Notes under the pieces: generated by a model
The model's database searches: none
Told to the model about the DNA's origin: nothing
Seen by the model: the letters and a program-made list of their open reading frames with translations, nothing else
Part shown: positions 248-6,751 of the stretch, piece after piece
Numbering within the stretch: the first letter of the stretch is position 1
Layout: every line of letters starts with the position of its first letter
Translations under genes and position numbers: made by a program
IMG/VR virus record: IMGVR_UViG_3300033153_006701
Coordinates: 1 to 64,000 of that record
Reading direction: 5' to 3' (one strand)
Length of the DNA: 64,000 nt
Source: a virus

Positions 248-417
248 TCCTTGCCTCCCTCTATAGTGACACCAGCTTCCTTAGCGAGCCTGGCATATAG
301 TGCCTGGCGAGTAGCAAGCTTCTCGAATGACTTGAAGACATCATGATAATGATGGATGATAGCGCCTTCCTGTACTCGAGTAACCTCTCCTCCATGAAAA
401 TACTCACCAAACAAAGT
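241..417 (-). pseudogene. C-terminal remainder of the GT2 gene in a shifted frame
   Basis: The frame opens just after a TAG at 420-418 and ends at a TAA at 243-241. It encodes about 58 residues that look like the missing end of the glycosyltransferase upstream: a GEYFHGG stretch, then HHYHDVFKSFEKL, RQALYARLAKEAGV and TIEGG. Small GT2 enzymes of this class typically end with a VHE-like turn, an HY motif and a Lys-Ser-rich helix in this order. The frame is joined to the 404-835 frame by removing one T from the GTTT run near 409-412, which restores DFVGEYFHGG. It could be translated alone from a TTG at 414, but no ribosome site was seen there. It is either a natural frameshift, a switch in a T run, or a sequence error. 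Confidence 0.6.
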
Positions 418-835
418 CTAGGCGATTCTGAAAGAACCTAACCTGTAGATCTGGGTATGCGTCTACCTCAGTCTGCTTCTTTCTCTCGATATCTAGCCAC
501 CTCATGCGAGGGAAAGAGTAGGCTTCCTTGTTCTCTCGCATAAGAGCAACCATTCTCTGTTGGGTAGACTCGAGACCCTCATCAGCATCAATCATCAGGA
601 CCCAGGGAGACCTTGCTAGATGAGCTGTCAGCGTCCTCATGGAGGCGAAGTCTGTGAGCCCGGCTCGGTAGACTCTGGCCCCAAGACTCTTTGCTAAGGC
701 TACTGTGTCATCTGTAGACCCAGCATCAACAACAACCCATTCTTGGAGAAGGGGACCCAGGGAATGCATAACCGAGTTGTACATATGCTCCAGACAGTTC
801 TCTTCGTCCTTAACGAACGTACATAGACTGATCAT
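404..835 (-). CDS. Glycosyltransferase family 2 (GT-A fold), truncated by a frameshift
   Basis: This 143-residue frame starts at ATG 835, overlapping the TAA of the methyltransferase gene by one base. It has the GT2 hallmarks: MISLCTFVKDEE at the N terminus, the nucleotide-binding VVDAGSTDDT (residues 35-44) and the metal-binding DAD at 83-85 within WVLMIDADE. The family transfers a sugar from a nucleotide donor. Relatives of the short type run to about 200-250 residues, whereas this frame stops soon after RFFQNRLDFVW. The rest of the domain continues in another frame (241-417). The catalytic core is present but the acceptor-side C terminus is lost unless the shift is corrected. It belongs to the glycan cluster with the GT4, GT9 and methyltransferase genes. 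Confidence 0.8.
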   Translation of the reverse strand: MISLCTFVKDEENCLEHMYNSVMHSLGPLLQEWVVVDAGSTDDTVALAKSLGARVYRAGLTDFASMRTLTAHLARSPWVLMIDADEGLESTQQRMVALMRENKEAYSFPRMRWLDIERKKQTEVDAYPDLQVRFFQNRLDFVW

Positions 836-1398
836 TATTTCTTCGCCACTACAGTAATGTTATGAGAGTCGTCCTCGGTAACTACCTGGACAATCTCTCG
901 GCAGCCACAGCCCAGCACAAGGCCTTCTAGCAAACCTGCAGTGAACCCAGCCATATGATAGTTGAGACCATAGTCCTGTCCTCCATAGAGGAGCCTTGAT
1001 GCCTCGAAGGCTGGAAGCTCTTTGTCCAACAGAGCCTTAGCTATCTTTGCCATGTCAGGGACACGTACAATGAACTCTCCCTCCGGCTTCAATAGCCGGA
1101 TCCACTCACTGAGAACCTTCTTGGTATGATGATAAGAGAAGTGCTCGAGTACATCATAAGCTAAGATCTGCTCAGCTACATTGCTAGGAAAGAACGGCAT
1201 GTTACGAACATCTGCTCGCAGAGTTAATCCATCCCATGGAACAAGATCAATGTTGACATAACCCTCTCTAATGTCTTCTCCACATCCTAGATTGAGCTTA
1301 GGGTTCTCCTTGTAGAAGTCCATCAAGCCCTCGAAGCTATCCTGTGGAATAGGTTGCTCGGTAAAATCAAACAATACTTCTGGTTCTTCTTCAGACAT
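835..1398 (-). CDS. SAM-dependent methyltransferase (class I)
   Basis: This is a 187-residue class I (Rossmann-like) methyltransferase. Motif I is KLNLGCGED (residues 34-42), the acidic residue ending strand 2 is D51 in YVNIDLVPW, and the post-motif region DVLEHF (82-87) precedes LLKPEGEFIVRVPD. This matches the short methyltransferases often found in surface-glycan gene clusters. The N terminus carries about 30 extra residues. The start ATG at 1398 has AAGGTG a few bases upstream, and the stop overlaps the GT2 start (TAATG). From the neighbourhood, I infer that it methylates a sugar or a glycan end, possibly to cap a chain; the sequence itself does not show the substrate. Confidence 0.8.
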   Translation of the reverse strand: MSEEEPEVLFDFTEQPIPQDSFEGLMDFYKENPKLNLGCGEDIREGYVNIDLVPWDGLTLRADVRNMPFFPSNVAEQILAYDVLEHFSYHHTKKVLSEWIRLLKPEGEFIVRVPDMAKIAKALLDKELPAFEASRLLYGGQDYGLNYHMAGFTAGLLEGLVLGCGCREIVQVVTEDDSHNITVVAKK

Positions 1399-1399
1399 G

Positions 1400-2518
1400 T
1401 TACACCTTTATTCCTTCCAATCTGGCTTTCATTGCTTCGCCGATCTTCTTCCAAGAGAAATTCTGTTCGACAAAAGCTTTTCCTAATGACCCAGCAGCCC
1501 ATGCTGCGCCCTGGTTCTCGAATACAAACCTCATCTGTTTACGTGCGTCTAATAGACTTGGCTCAGCCCAGGTCATTTCTCCCGTATACATTGGCCAAGG
1601 CATTCCCCAGACAGGGGCCTTGGTATACTTGACTGGGTAAGCCTGTCCTACTTGAATGAATTCATCGCTCCCGCTATACCCAGTAGCTATAACTGGATTT
1701 GCCTCTGCCATTGCCTCTACCATAGGAATACCAAATCCCTCACATTTATGCAAAGAGACATAACAGTCTCCCTGGATATGCAGGCAGCGGATCTGTCCTC
1801 TTGAGAGAAGGCTAGAGATGAGCAGAATCTTTGGGAAGCTAGGAAGATGTAGACTATCTTTGATCTGTTTTACCTGTCTTCGGATGACAGCTATATCTTC
1901 TTCCATACCTGGATTCAAGCAATAGCTTTTCATGACCAGGCGGACCTTCTCCTCTGCTTTGAACTCTGTCAAGAATGCTCTCAGAAGAGCAGCAGGATTC
2001 TTCCTCTCTAGCCACTGGAAGATAGAATAGAAGGTAAACTCTCCTTCTTCAGCAGGTTCAAGCACGGGATTTTTTGATACCTCTTCCTCTTGGTTGAAGT
2101 TGAAAGTATGAGGGAAACAGTGGATAGGAATTGTGATACCAGAATCCTTGAACACCTTCACATTGTACTGACTAGGGACCCAGACTTCATCCAGGGTGTT
2201 GATCTTAGTAACCCAGTCCCGTGGGAGCTGATCCGTTTCCCACGCAGCATAGCCAATATTGTATCTGCCAGGCTTTACCAACTGTGAGTAGTTAGGAGGG
2301 GTAGCATGGAGAATGAAGATCTTGTCACCAATGCGAGCCTTCTGGAGCTTAGTGATGAGTTTTCCCATCTCTCCAAGAGCTGGTCTCTTTTGTTCAAAAC
2401 TAATGGGAGCCACGTTCAGGTCTACTCCTGCTAGGTACAGTGCTGCGATGTTGTTCCTTGCCGCTTCTGCATAGCCAGACCCATCTAGACAGGCTCCTAC
2501 GTATGTTACTTGTACCAT
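1400..2518 (-). CDS. Glycosyltransferase family 4 (GT-B fold), first copy
   Basis: This is a 372-residue GT-B fold enzyme. The N-terminal domain has the acceptor-side loop DGSGYAEAARN (residues 12-22) seen in retaining GT4 enzymes. The C-terminal nucleotide-sugar domain carries CEGFGIPMVEAMA (about residues 257-270), the classic EX7E-type motif, followed by NPVIATGYSGSDEF. The central FYSIFQWLERKNP stretch is typical of GT4 proteins acting on glycans. The start is ATG 2518, overlapping the upstream stop as TAATG. It sits next to a second GT4 of the same general class (2518-3777), which suggests that two different sugar transfers occur in sequence. Donor and acceptor are unknown. The fold is near certain; the role in a phage glycan is inferred. 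Confidence 0.85.
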   Translation of the reverse strand: MVQVTYVGACLDGSGYAEAARNNIAALYLAGVDLNVAPISFEQKRPALGEMGKLITKLQKARIGDKIFILHATPPNYSQLVKPGRYNIGYAAWETDQLPRDWVTKINTLDEVWVPSQYNVKVFKDSGITIPIHCFPHTFNFNQEEEVSKNPVLEPAEEGEFTFYSIFQWLERKNPAALLRAFLTEFKAEEKVRLVMKSYCLNPGMEEDIAVIRRQVKQIKDSLHLPSFPKILLISSLLSRGQIRCLHIQGDCYVSLHKCEGFGIPMVEAMAEANPVIATGYSGSDEFIQVGQAYPVKYTKAPVWGMPWPMYTGEMTWAEPSLLDARKQMRFVFENQGAAWAAGSLGKAFVEQNFSWKKIGEAMKARLEGIKV

Positions 2519-3777
2519 TACTGTCCTCCCCTTAGCTGCATTGAAGGTAACCTAGGAGTCTCTCTCTTCATTGTGACTCGAGCAAAGAGATCGACCCATG
2601 CCTTTGTGACAGCTCTCCAGTCGTGCTGGATAGCCCAGCTACGTGCTAGGCGGGCTTTTTCGTTACCGTACTTGGGTCCAGCCATAAAAGCTTTCGTCAT
2701 CTGCTCAACGATCTCTGGAAGTAGTCCCTTTGGTCTGTACCCAGAGTTGTCTATCCAAATCTGATCTTTGCACTCATACATGTACCCTCTCTCACTGTCT
2801 TCCCCAAGCTGCTGAGGCATAGAGGTGTTTCTGGGAGCTACTACTGGGACACCTGCGGCCATAGCCTCTGTTACGGTTAGCCCCCACCCTTCTCCTAGGT
2901 GAGTGGTGAGGAAAACATCTGCCATGTTATACAGCATGTTCAGCTTCTTAGAAGAGATAGGTTGCGCGGGGTTATACCCTACTGGGTAGATGATGTCTTC
3001 GCTCTTAGAGAGGCCAAGGGACCCTATTGCCTTCAGCATATCTCCACCCTGGTCTGTGACTGCAGAGTGGAGATACATCTTGGCAGTTGGAAAGCGTTCT
3101 TTGAACTTCTTGAAAGCTAGGAAAGAGTAGGGAAGCTGCTTCCTAGTAGAGTTACGATTCACATTAATGATGACCGGAGTCCCCTCTTCAACTCCAAGAA
3201 AAGTCTTTCTAACTTCATCGTTCTTCTCTTTAGATCTGGGAGTATAGATCGCACTATCTACCCCATGAGGAATCTCTAGGAGAACCTTCTCGAGATCTGG
3301 GAAGGTATGGAGCGTTCGCTCCTTCCCATGCTTGGTATAGCAGACCGGGATATCAACGGCTCTCAAAAAGCGGGAAGCCTCGGTGGGAACATTACAGTCG
3401 ACCGGGTAGTAGTAGATAAAGGTTGGGGGCTTGTGCCCCTTCTTCTTACACTCGTTCTTGAACTTCACCAACTCGTCTGCGACAGCGTCAGTCACATAGA
3501 GATCATTACAGACCCAGACAATATCATATGGCTGTTCGTACAGAGTCTTGATGAACATCTTCATCCCGTGTGGATCACGGGGGTCCATTAGTTTAGCTGG
3601 CTGCATGAGCCAGGGAACTACATTACGGTCGATGAAGCTTCCGTGAAAGTTAATGGCAAGATGATGGATGTCGTAGAGTCCCGTTGCGTGCAGAGCCCCT
3701 ACAACATGCTTGCTCACGATACCAAAGCCTGTTCCAGCAATCGCAGAATCAGACCAGCATAATACTTTACGTTTCAT
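2518..3777 (-). CDS. Glycosyltransferase family 4 (GT-B fold), second copy
   Basis: This is a 419-residue retaining GT4-type glycosyltransferase. The N terminus, VLCWSDSAIAGTGFG, provides the Gly-rich acceptor loop. The C-terminal domain has the donor-binding loop GEGWGLTVTEAMAAG (about residues 294-308) with both glutamates of the EX7E motif, followed by VPVVAPRNTSMPQQLG. The middle (VIINVNRNSTRKQLPYSF) is the usual entry strand of the second Rossmann domain. ATG 3777 lies one base before the TAA of the GT9 gene at 3778. It differs clearly in sequence from the GT4 at 1400-2518, so these are not recent duplicates. It probably acts in the cytoplasm on the same glycan as its neighbours. Confidence 0.87.
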   Translation of the reverse strand: MKRKVLCWSDSAIAGTGFGIVSKHVVGALHATGLYDIHHLAINFHGSFIDRNVVPWLMQPAKLMDPRDPHGMKMFIKTLYEQPYDIVWVCNDLYVTDAVADELVKFKNECKKKGHKPPTFIYYYPVDCNVPTEASRFLRAVDIPVCYTKHGKERTLHTFPDLEKVLLEIPHGVDSAIYTPRSKEKNDEVRKTFLGVEEGTPVIINVNRNSTRKQLPYSFLAFKKFKERFPTAKMYLHSAVTDQGGDMLKAIGSLGLSKSEDIIYPVGYNPAQPISSKKLNMLYNMADVFLTTHLGEGWGLTVTEAMAAGVPVVAPRNTSMPQQLGEDSERGYMYECKDQIWIDNSGYRPKGLLPEIVEQMTKAFMAGPKYGNEKARLARSWAIQHDWRAVTKAWVDLFARVTMKRETPRLPSMQLRGGQ

Positions 3778-5739
3778 TTAGACCTCTTCTATCCTTAGTC
3801 TTTGATTGCCTGTTCTTTCCAGGTGATCGATACATGAGTTAACAACCTCTGACGGCTGAATGATCTTCCAGCAGAGCTCACCAATGCTACAGCCCTTGTA
3901 CCAGCAATCCCAGGTTCCCATATTTTGTATACAGAATGTAGTACTATTTTCGACCGTAATATCATATACATACTCATCCCGACGATCGGAAAGCTCAATC
4001 TTTTTGATTGGAACATATAGATAATCTTCATCAACTATGTGTCTACTCCACGTCGCCTGTTGATTAGGAATATATACTCTGTAGATGATTGCATCCTGCT
4101 TGTAATTAGTATGATGTTTTCTCTTGTATATCCGAGACCAGATACCAAACCTAGTCAGTAGCTCTTGAGTTCCATAAGCCATCAGACGAGAAGCTGTACT
4201 CAGAACTTTATTATCCTTATCTTGATAACCGTCTCCTTGTAGATAGCCAGTAATAAAACTTTCAATCGCAATATCACTAGCATTCCATAGAAGAAAAGGA
4301 ATCTCCTTTTGGACCGCTCTTCTTTTTCCAAAGAAAGTATCTATATACTCAACAAGAGGCTGCGAATAAATTTCCACCCTAGTAGAATTGTCCTTAGTAG
4401 ACGGATAGACTCCAACTGTTGCCGAATATTTGGAGCGACCAAAGCCTCTTAGGGTCTCAATAATCTGTTCTTCATGTGAGCCTACAGTAAAGACAACGGA
4501 CTTACGATCTGGCCGTAGATGACCCTCCGCTGCATAAAGTCCCAACACTTGATATGTAAGCAGATCAACCTCTGGAAGAATAGGATCTGCCTTGTTCCGA
4601 GGAACACACAAGAAATCATTATCGGTTAACTCTTCTGCTGGAATCCATTCTCTGTTCGCAGTAAAGTTTTTTCTACGAAAGGCCGATGATGAGCCCTTAA
4701 CGGCAAGCATTTTATGGTCCTGTGTCACAGTAATTGGCTCGTTTGAGCCAAAATATTCTATGTCATAGAGCTTTCTACCTTTGCGTAAATTCTTATGAAC
4801 CTTAGTAATTTTGTTCCAATTGGAGTCGGTTGTTTTAACAGTTTGCCCGACTTCTAGATCCTGGATTTCTCGGTATCCACTTGCTGTTAAAACTAAGCTC
4901 TCCTTAACTACACAAGGACACGGGTTGTACTGGTCACCTTTCCAAACAGCTACAGCCTTGTTGTAGTGGTTGATACGGGCAGCAGGATGTGTAGGACCAA
5001 AGTAAGATACTGTGGGGATACCAAGAGCCCCTGCAATATGGAGAAGGGACGAGTCAGGGCAGAGGACCAGATCACATGCAGCAGTGATAGCAGCTATCTC
5101 CCGAACCTTCTTGTCCTTTAAGAGAAGACCTCCAGGAAGGTTATCCCACATGACATTGCTTTGCCAGTCACTCTGGTGGGTAAAGATAATTGGTTTTGCT
5201 TTGATTCGCTGACCTAACATGACCAAGATCTCTTTGAGCTTTCTATGGTCAAATGATCTGATCTTATTACTGGCAAATGGCTGTACTGCGATCTTGGGAT
5301 AGAAATGATATTGTCTGACTACATCCCGTCCTTCTTCTAGCTCCCCTTTCGTCAGATAGATGTGAGGAACAGAGTCTTCTAGTTTGACACCAGCTGCATT
5401 AGCAAACAGATCAATACGATTGATTGGAGGGTTCCCGTGAACCTCATACTCTGTGCACGGACAATGCAGGTCTAAGACTGCATCAAACTGATCTCTGACT
5501 AAATGGTTCTTGTCTACGAACCCGTTGATGTCTGGGTTAAACATAAGAATATCAACTAGAGCTCCGCCAAGATAGCGTGTATCTGTGGCTACTATGATCT
5601 GACCATCAGGGAACTCTTTCTTGAGGGCTCTGATAGTAGGGGTCAGCATAATCACATCACCGATACCCTGACCACGGATCACACAGATCTTAGGGGCACC
5701 GGTAGAGATCAGTCTGCGAAGACGGTCTAAAATTTTCAA
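3778..5739 (-). CDS. GT9 heptosyltransferase-like glycosyltransferase interrupted by an intein
   Basis: This is a 653-residue precursor. Residues 1-275 and 612-653 together form a 317-residue GT9-type (ADP-heptose:LPS heptosyltransferase-like) protein. The N-terminal Rossmann strand is KICVIRGQGIGDVIMLTPT (18-36). The donor-domain motif is CPDSSLLHIAGALGIPTV (227-244), followed by YFGPTHP. Residues 276-611 are an intein with a homing endonuclease (separate entry). Joining the flanks gives NPCP-CWYKGC, restoring a Cys-rich segment that GT9 relatives often have near the end, which supports the chosen borders. The start is a TTG at 5739 with AAAGGA seven bases upstream, and no ATG fits better. 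Activity of the enzyme would depend on splicing. It heads the glycosyltransferase series. Confidence 0.87.
   Translation of the reverse strand: MKILDRLRRLISTGAPKICVIRGQGIGDVIMLTPTIRALKKEFPDGQIIVATDTRYLGGALVDILMFNPDINGFVDKNHLVRDQFDAVLDLHCPCTEYEVHGNPPINRIDLFANAAGVKLEDSVPHIYLTKGELEEGRDVVRQYHFYPKIAVQPFASNKIRSFDHRKLKEILVMLGQRIKAKPIIFTHQSDWQSNVMWDNLPGGLLLKDKKVREIAAITAACDLVLCPDSSLLHIAGALGIPTVSYFGPTHPAARINHYNKAVAVWKGDQYNPCPCVVKESLVLTASGYREIQDLEVGQTVKTTDSNWNKITKVHKNLRKGRKLYDIEYFGSNEPITVTQDHKMLAVKGSSSAFRRKNFTANREWIPAEELTDNDFLCVPRNKADPILPEVDLLTYQVLGLYAAEGHLRPDRKSVVFTVGSHEEQIIETLRGFGRSKYSATVGVYPSTKDNSTRVEIYSQPLVEYIDTFFGKRRAVQKEIPFLLWNASDIAIESFITGYLQGDGYQDKDNKVLSTASRLMAYGTQELLTRFGIWSRIYKRKHHTNYKQDAIIYRVYIPNQQATWSRHIVDEDYLYVPIKKIELSDRRDEYVYDITVENSTTFCIQNMGTWDCWYKGCSIGELCWKIIQPSEVVNSCIDHLERTGNQRLRIEEV
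3907..4914 (-). mobile_element. Intein with LAGLIDADG homing endonuclease inside the GT9 gene
   Basis: This is an in-frame 336-residue intein (precursor residues 276-611). The N-terminal splicing block starts at Cys276: CVVKESLVLTASGYREI. The block with the conserved Thr-x-x-His is ITVTQDHKMLA (336-346). A two-motif LAGLIDADG endonuclease lies in the middle: VLGLYAAEGHL (398-408) and FITGYLQGDGY (495-505), each keeping an acidic residue. Block F is YVYDITVENSTTF (590-602), and the C-terminal junction is GTWD followed by Cys612. Two features are unusual: the last intein residue is Asp (codon GAT), not Asn, and the penultimate residue is Trp, not His. The segment looks richer in A and T than its flanks and lacks the CTCGAG word common elsewhere. 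It is probably a mobile intein; splicing efficiency is uncertain. Confidence 0.88.
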
Positions 5740-5752
5740 GGTGGGTCCTTTC

Positions 5753-6751
5753 TTACATATTCGAGGCTAGTAAACAGCCACGGGCTACAGCGCGCAATGG
5801 ATCGCTAGCATAGCGAACCTCAGATACTGCCAGAGGAAAATCTCCTCTAGCTAGCCGAGCTCTGAAGGCATCCAAGAATCCCTTTGCTCTTGAAGATCCT
5901 CCACTAACTACTACAGGAATAGCTTTTGAGAACTTAGGAAGATCCTTACTATCCTGTAGCCTCACGGCCAACCAGCTAACAGTATAGTCAATGAGACGAA
6001 GGTAGTATGCAGACACAGCAGATAGGATCGGATTCTCATTGTCCTCCCCTACTACAAAGTCTCCATTCTCCTTCTCTACCTGAACAATACTGTCCTCTTG
6101 GGCAGTAGACACTGCAGCCATGCGATCGATCCAGTCCCCACTACGTGTAGTAGAGAACTTAATGACCGCCTCACCAGAAGACATGACGCACACGTTGACC
6201 ATGCCAGCACCAAACGACAGAGTGATACCTGTGTAATCACTATCCTCGAGCTCTGAATAGCAGATAGCTTCTGCTTCATTCAAGGGCCGAGGCTGCCACC
6301 CAAACTCTTCCAAGTCTTTCTTGAGAGCGTCCTCATGGAATCCAGTATCGAAGTGTTCTCCGTCTTGGTCCACAGGAGGTGCTGGGATAGAGTAGACGAG
6401 TATGTCTCCCTTCTTCTTAGGCTTGCCTACCAATTTCTGTAAGATGAACTTGAGCACACGGCGCGCGTCTGGTTCACGGGGAGAAAGAACTCCACGGAAC
6501 AGGGGCCTGCGTGCTGACTGATGGCGCTCAATTGCTTTCTCGATGGCGTCAGCGCCTACTACTACAAAACTACCATCGGTGTCTTTGAAATACGAACGAT
6601 TAGCTAGGCCCTTCTCCATCATCTTAGCAGCGATGGGAGAAGCAGGGGTCATACGATAGAACGCATCCCTGAACTCAGTATACCTAACCTTGTCAGATGA
6701 CTCGGTTGCTTTGATAAGAAATGAGGTTCCTACATCGAGTCCTATTGGCAT
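5753..6751 (-). CDS. Actin/MreB/Hsp70-fold ATPase-like protein
   Basis: This 332-residue protein shows all five landmarks of the actin ATPase fold in order: phosphate-1 loop GLDVGTS (4-10), MreB-like RPLFRGVL (82-89), connect-1 LNEAEAICY (157-165), phosphate-2 region TLSFGAGMVNVCV (177-189), adenosine motif PVVVSGGSSRAKGF (279-292) and connect-2 DPLRAVARG (317-325). In phosphate-2 the usual Asp that coordinates Mg is replaced by Ser, and the Thr by Met. SGDWIDRMAA follows. Related proteins polymerise (MreB, ParM) or act as ATPases (Hsp70, PilM). Its place between baseplate-type genes and the glycan cluster, directly after a membrane protein (TAATG overlap), hints at a filament or membrane-anchored function during infection. 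Its actual role is unknown. Confidence 0.75.
   Translation of the reverse strand: MPIGLDVGTSFLIKATESSDKVRYTEFRDAFYRMTPASPIAAKMMEKGLANRSYFKDTDGSFVVVGADAIEKAIERHQSARRPLFRGVLSPREPDARRVLKFILQKLVGKPKKKGDILVYSIPAPPVDQDGEHFDTGFHEDALKKDLEEFGWQPRPLNEAEAICYSELEDSDYTGITLSFGAGMVNVCVMSSGEAVIKFSTTRSGDWIDRMAAVSTAQEDSIVQVEKENGDFVVGEDNENPILSAVSAYYLRLIDYTVSWLAVRLQDSKDLPKFSKAIPVVVSGGSSRAKGFLDAFRARLARGDFPLAVSEVRYASDPLRAVARGCLLASNM

Follow-up and report, generated by a model that had tools for sequence, protein, structure and literature searches.

Inteins occur in sugar-metabolism enzymes of archaea, for example in UDP-glucose dehydrogenase, so the novelty of an intein in a phage GT9 glycosyltransferase, such as the one described here, is one of degree. 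We refer to the whole stretch of DNA analysed as the window, which covers 64,000 bases out of a virus record of 83,614 bases. Kelley et al. (2016; PMC5050341) report, in the portion of their text considered here, that all phage intein hosts in their analysis bind nucleic acid. A full-text literature search, judged by titles and the beginnings of abstracts, returned no report of a phage glycosyltransferase or GDP-mannose dehydratase bearing an intein, which is no proof of absence; in the portions of PMC6132909, PMC12403621, PMC10638138, PMC11162368 and PMC7468147 that mention both terms, inteins and glycosyltransferases concern different genes. The inteins in the DNA methyltransferase of Pseudomonas phage Lana, the anaerobic ribonucleotide reductase of Lactococcus phage 949 and the thymidylate synthase of Aeromonas phage PS1 are full length, begin with Cys1 and contain a TxxH-type block B, two LAGLIDADG motifs and Cys at the +1 position. 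The window intein has all of these features and can be aligned with them end to end at about 23-25% identity, but it resides in a glycosyltransferase and ends in Asp, whereas they end in Asn and have DNA or nucleotide enzymes as hosts. Inteins with Asp or Gln as the last residue have been described (Amitai 2004, as cited in parts of PMC4031507), although the hosts named for them there, DNA polymerase II and ribonucleotide reductase, are no sugar enzymes. LAGLIDADG endonucleases have also been tied to glycosylation genes in Haloferax glycosylation clusters, where passages of PMC5867893 propose that they move parts of the cluster; those archaeal genes are free-standing, whereas the window element is an intein within the enzyme.

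The precursor gene (3778..5739, minus strand, as are all window features below) is a single open frame of 653 codons with a TTG start. It encodes a 653-residue protein consisting of a 275-residue GT9 N-extein (4915..5739), an in-frame intein of 336 residues from Cys1 to Asp336 (3907..4914; precursor residues 276-611) and a 42-residue Cys-rich GT9 tail as the C-extein (3781..3906; CWYKGCSIGELCW...). An earlier sequence-only reading had assigned the same coordinates, frame and residue numbers, which we confirmed. Joining the GT9 portions, residues 1-275 and 612-653, gives a predicted GT9 of 317 residues. The similarity to GT9 claimed in that reading was borne out by the Pfam profile Glyco_transf_9, which matched residues 109-282 of the precursor with 51.2 bits (cut-off 22); the intein-free relative described below matched the GT9 profile with 46.2 bits. 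The enzyme thus belongs to GT9 by profile, and sugar transfer is its predicted activity. NCBIfam divided the protein in the same way, with heptosyltransferase models on one part and intein-bearing-protein models on the other, at scores far below their cut-offs. PHROGs matched the gene only to the NrdD (anaerobic ribonucleoside reductase) family, and since this match runs through the intein (residues 276-615), automatic phage annotation could misname the precursor gene. A single-sequence AF2 model of the whole precursor had a pLDDT of 33 and was discarded.

Relatives of the GT9 enzyme were few. The spliced GT9 found no match at E 1e-3 by tblastn in 50,697 phage records, and one of the GT9 scans of genome contigs gave no relative. 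A TPR-type protein from a Rhodobacteraceae MAG matched the GT9 query over a short stretch and was rejected as a counterpart. Queries of IMG/VR with the GT9 N-extein, the intein and a two-row GT9 alignment led to a second assembly of the locus, to the related phage record L010 and to a distant GT9-like protein in L003/L112.

The insert has several hallmarks of a class 1 intein. Position 1 is Cys (Cys276 of the precursor; codon 4912..4914), the block A nucleophile; block B contains T64-Q-D-H67 (4714..4725), in which His67 is invariant in all 11 rows of alignment A3; and Cys612 provides the +1 nucleophile. Both LAGLIDADG motifs, LGLYAAEG (4522..4545) and GYLQGDG (4228..4248), retain the acidic residue, Glu130 and Asp228, respectively, as had been claimed from the sequence. 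With Cys1 present and Asp at F:4, a class 3 mechanism was rejected. The HINT-profile match predicted for residues 276-611 was found, as Intein_splicing scored 40 bits (cut-off 35.8) on the insert, together with LAGLIDADG_3 at 51 bits (22.5), whereas Hint_2 (26 bits; 28.4) and Hom_end (17.9 bits; 21.1) remained below their cut-offs. An AF2 model of the intein alone, built from 11 sequences, reached a pLDDT of 86.1 and a pTM of 0.86. Its best Foldseek match was the TliVMA intein (7qsu; E 2.3e-20, TM (query) 0.79), and VIA-align superimposed model residues 1..336 on chain residues 1..371 with Z 32.3 and an rmsd of 2.8 for 308 aligned residues. The TliVMA intein, whose host is annotated as a V-ATPase and which is only 20-23% identical to the window intein, was also the best (3.3e-26) among the 38 distinct PDB sequences matched at E 0.01 by the A3 profile. 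Foldseek also matched PI-SceI and I-DmoI entries, and the two motifs with their acids lie in a predicted endonuclease fold. The predicted model indicates that the insert folds as a complete HINT and LAGLIDADG intein, with the HINT domain joining both insert ends, in agreement with the full-size LAGLIDADG intein in a GT9 gene proposed from the sequence.

Hedgehog and BIL domains could also be aligned to the model, with Z of about 16.6-18.4 over 127-137 residues, and the C-terminal end of the insert is atypical, as expected if the insert were a different, BIL-like or hedgehog-like HINT domain that cleaves itself and cuts the enzyme without splicing. We regard this as very improbable, because structures of inteins with endonucleases cover nearly the whole model at Z up to 32, the +1 nucleophile and an endonuclease domain are present, and the empty site in a related phage (see below) fits exact excision.

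The C-terminal end requires closer consideration. The sequence-only reading had listed all splicing blocks; every block is indeed present as a segment, but the C-terminal catalytic residues are atypical. Block F, YVYDITVENSTTFCIQN (3922..3972; limits set by eye), retains Asp318 at F:4, while Thr325 occupies the position of the usual block-F His, with residue roles taken from parts of PMC4031507. Block G, MGTWD|C (3904..3921), ends in Gly-Thr-Trp-Asp, so that Trp335-Asp336 instead of His-Asn precedes Cys+1 (GTWD|C rather than VHN|C). Of 17 phage inteins compared, the 16 others all end in Asn and Asp is the end of the window intein alone, a count that reflects ends set by eye; the penultimate residue is His in 13 of these 16, and Lys, Gly or Ser in the remainder. 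The block-F His is also absent in several relatives, for example in the inteins of phages Lana, 587AP2, Nyseid and 949, and it is missing in methyltransferase and NrdD relatives, too.

These departures at Thr325, Trp335 and Asp336, together with the Asn ends and frequent penultimate His of the other inteins, might indicate a decaying intein with a mutated C-terminal cleavage site, whose precursor stalls or is cleaved only on the N side and leaves little or no working GT9. However, the frame and both endonuclease acids are intact, and the gene is identical in two assemblies. Passages of PMC5050341 report that the penultimate His is poorly conserved among mycobacteriophage inteins and that replacing the native Gly by His slowed splicing of one of them. 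Furthermore, parts of PMC4031507 describe Asp-, Gln- or Glu-ended inteins as following the common splicing pathway, in which their last residue cyclises, although other mechanisms are possible; a Gln end is linked there to slow splicing in two archaeal inteins, and in one viral intein it splices more efficiently than Asn. Decay is accordingly an unlikely explanation, though the first to consider after a functional intein. Since Asp-ending inteins have been described, splicing of the window intein is likely by analogy, possibly at a rate below that of an Asn-ending intein.

The GT9 gene is embedded in a run of glycan genes. It is followed downstream by a glycosyltransferase group 1 (GT4-type) gene (2518..3777), and the remaining run (404..2518) comprises a second glycosyltransferase group 1 gene (1400-2518), a methyltransferase gene (835-1398) and a glycosyltransferase family 2 gene (404-835). 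The upstream neighbour (5753..6751) encodes an actin-family protein (Pfam Volactin, 208 bits), which has 275 relatives in IMG/VR contigs; two metagenomic phage records, 485 and 595 kb long, contain copies that are 33-35% identical. We used this actin-like gene as a query for related phages and kept the best 80 of the 275 related loci (L008-L087). One of them, L010 (IMGVR_UViG_3300033146_001917), holds an uninterrupted GT9 gene flanked by counterparts of the window neighbours, which are 70% identical upstream (actin family) and 55% and 51% identical downstream; the 55% identical protein is the counterpart, in the same place, of the GT4-type neighbour. The intein-free allele in a related phage that the sequence-only reading had suggested looking for was thus found in a syntenic position. 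The two GT9 enzymes are 42-44% identical and have no DNA match. The L010 sequence GPCPCWSKHDC aligns without a gap across the junction with the joined window sequence NPCPCWYKGC, and the splice point C276...D611|C612 therefore fits; the counterpart is consistent with exact excision. The GT9-like protein of L003, a weak local match, has Cys-x-Cys at two comparable places by eye (ECPCG and DPCRCW), which suggests that the insertion site is a conserved Cys motif.

The same motif places the N-extein residue Cys274 two residues ahead of Cys1. This CPC context is the sole sequence hint at a conditional switch, in which a C274-P-C276 disulfide would hold the precursor until it meets a reducing cytoplasm, or a slow Asp step would delay GT9, thereby timing glycan modification. 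A precedent is the MoaA intein of P. abyssi, held by a disulfide between Cys-3 and Cys1 according to portions of PMC3922620 and PMC10663303, but the spacing here is -2 instead of -3. Because the Cys pair is also present in the intein-free L010 enzyme, the CPC context may be a coincidence. PMC4031507 (2014) states, in the part considered, that conditional splicing had no known physiological role at that time, whereas PMC10663303 (2023), in similar part, argues for some. We consider such a switch improbable for this locus.

The second assembly, IMGVR_UViG_3300033148_004740 (G001; 126,472 bases), carries the GT9 gene with its intein base for base identical to the window record, and the rest of the 14.75 kb compared differs by 7 substitutions and one 14-base gap. 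The gap lies at window position 406 in the family 2 glycosyltransferase gene and is either an allele or an assembly difference; this gene encodes 143 residues in the window (404-835) and 202 in the second assembly (L008:13917-14525). Further along, G001 has an NAD-dependent epimerase/dehydratase gene without an intein (GDP_Man_Dehyd, 165.5 bits) and, by eye, an aminotransferase-like protein, additional glycosyltransferases and methyltransferases. It also contains a second intein, ending in HIVHN|C, in a DNA polymerase III alpha gene (host identified by Pfam). The base composition sets the GT9 intein apart. Its GC3 of 0.336 is exceeded by the exteins (0.451 and 0.548) and by every one of the 25 other window genes measured (0.407-0.585), suggesting a later arrival.

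The sequence-only reading considered a glycosyltransferase an unusual intein host, which agrees with the part of PMC5050341 cited above; nevertheless, the GT9 gene is not a single odd case, as phage inteins also exist in GT4 and GDP-mannose dehydratase genes. Using the Lana methyltransferase intein as a query, we reached L128 (IMGVR_UViG_3300023179_006577), a 954-residue protein with an intein (L128:1441-2628) immediately preceding CEGFGMP. LAGLIDADG_3 scored 42.5 bits on it, with Intein_splicing (19.6) and Glycos_transf_1 (24.4) below their cut-offs; the Glycos_transf_1 match begins at the +1 residue, and the N-terminal part of the protein has relatives in named phages that carry the annotation glycosyl transferase group I or glycosyltransferase. 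Among the best 80 of 106 relatives, this site holds an intein in 3 and is empty in 76, while one stops short of it. Querying with the GT4 intein added three further loci (L210-L212). The idea that the window holds the only phage glycosyltransferase intein was rejected on these grounds. The GT4 inteins represent four distinct alleles (L128, L174, L210 and L211), all ending in IG[AS]TFQ|C. Their pairwise dN/dS is about 0.13-0.24, of which five of the six values are rough because dS is saturated (>1 in 5 of 6 pairs); the L210-L174 pair has a dN of 0.044 and a dS of 0.26. These ratios indicate that non-Asn ends persist in phage glycosyltransferase inteins that look functional. Among seven records tested for the actin gene, those of L211 and L212, which have a GT4 intein, also carry it; the other five do not show it and are possibly fragments.

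The GT4 inteins resemble the window intein in occupying a conserved-Cys site of a phage glycosyltransferase and in ending with an aromatic penultimate and a non-Asn last residue (ATFQ/STFQ versus GTWD). They differ in the enzyme family and the site, in retaining the block-F His and in having Cys at F:4, and they are about 20-22% identical to the window intein. In the same run of genes, L010 itself has a GDP-mannose 4,6-dehydratase gene (L010:15229-16995; open frame of 680 codons) that contains an intein. GDP_Man_Dehyd (313.8 bits) and LAGLIDADG_3 (26.4) scored above their cut-offs and Intein_splicing (19.4) below. Although it too is an intein in a glycan gene of a related phage, it differs from the window intein in its host enzyme, in its end LVIGN|S (Gly-Asn|Ser) and in the replacement of the first LAGLIDADG acid by Gly. 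The window intein is 22-25% identical to its best relatives by BLAST. A tree of 19 inteins, from which four inteins lacking LAGLIDADG (HNH or mini) had been left out beforehand, had deep forks without support and did not group the GT9, GT4 and GDP-mannose dehydratase inteins, while an AU test with 18 inteins did not reject grouping them (p 0.34 for GT9 with GT4, 0.38 with the dehydratase intein). Common origin of the GT9 and GT4 inteins is thus neither shown nor rejected, and for the glycan-gene inteins both independent invasions and a shared source are possible on the sequence comparison. The GT9 element is ordinary as an intein, while its host protein is unusual, and the GT4 and GDP-mannose dehydratase inteins are exceptions to the reported nucleic-acid-binding hosts of mycobacteriophage inteins.

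We looked for PF14890 in those 42 of the 80 actin-gene records that reach about 20 kb, and it matched at E 0.01 in 12 and above the cut-off in 8. The hosts confirmed by Pfam in actin-bearing records were DNA polymerase III alpha, ribonucleotide reductase, Thy1 (ThyX), T4-like portal and dUTPase, which makes glycan genes a minority of intein hosts even in these phages. The host proteins of the L090 and L094 inteins gave no Pfam match outside the intein, and in L094 the Intein_splicing match was just under its cut-off; both host names are guesses. Some actin-bearing phages have apparent split inteins in their genes for DNA polymerase III alpha and ribonucleotide reductase, the pieces of which are bounded by N- and C-intein halves (L047:5407-10422, L068:9964-14829, L040:9181-14192, L015:11492-16669, L024:8699-12500 and L069:3214-8175); in L047, L068 and L040, the frame between the halves looks endonuclease-like by eye. 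A dUTPase gene (L018:5475-6475) is likewise in two frames with N- and C-intein halves, only about 60 bases apart. The 44.7-kb record G044 (L128, L215, L222 and L225) has seven LAGLIDADG_3 matches; its genes for ribonucleotide reductase, GT4, a PhoH-like protein and a PD-(D/E)XK nuclease carry inteins or intein-like inserts, and a frame with LAGLIDADG matches adjoins a DnaE-like gene. A RecA-family gene with a LAGLIDADG insert (L216, record G046) shares its record with a GT4 intein, and in Mannheimia phage vB_MhS_587AP2 (L115) a methyltransferase intein lies in a 'hypothetical protein' gene beside a partial methyltransferase.

Taken together, these results lead us to infer, with a probability of roughly 0.72, that the window element is a mobile class 1 intein whose splicing involves cyclisation of Asp and whose spread depends on homing. 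The conserved Cys motif close to the GT9 C terminus would have been invaded by a selfish homing intein starting with Cys1. In co-infections, the LAGLIDADG endonuclease of this intein would cut alleles that lack it, and repair of the cut allele would copy the intein in. Splicing would start with an N-S acyl shift at Cys1 and transfer to Cys+1, the terminal Asp would cyclise in place of Asn, and ligation of the exteins would yield the 317-residue GT9. Against this reading stand Thr325, Trp335 and Asp336, atypical residues at positions assisting or performing C-terminal cleavage; in addition, a single allele of the GT9 intein is known, and the empty allele belongs to a diverged relative (42-44% identity) and not to the same phage.

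A more speculative generalisation is that homing inteins have a recurrent niche in the genes with which large uncultivated phages build glycans (so far GT9, GT4 and GDP-mannose dehydratase), and that those in glycosyltransferases have swapped His-Asn for an aromatic residue followed by Asp or Gln, so that slow or conditional splicing delays or gates surface-sugar modification in the course of infection. As a whole, we find this proposal improbable; conditional control of glycosylation through splicing is possible by analogy. The nucleic-acid-binding hosts reported in the cited part of PMC5050341 are in keeping with a preference of inteins for DNA metabolism or a part in its regulation. The presence of inteins in phage sugar enzymes, in one case at a site that is mostly empty in relatives, suggests that a conserved target exposed in co-infection may suffice. 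The most useful result is the recurrence of inteins in phage glycan genes, together with the common Phe-Gln ends of the GT4 set, whose four diverged alleles make the chemistry of non-Asn ends testable in a natural family.
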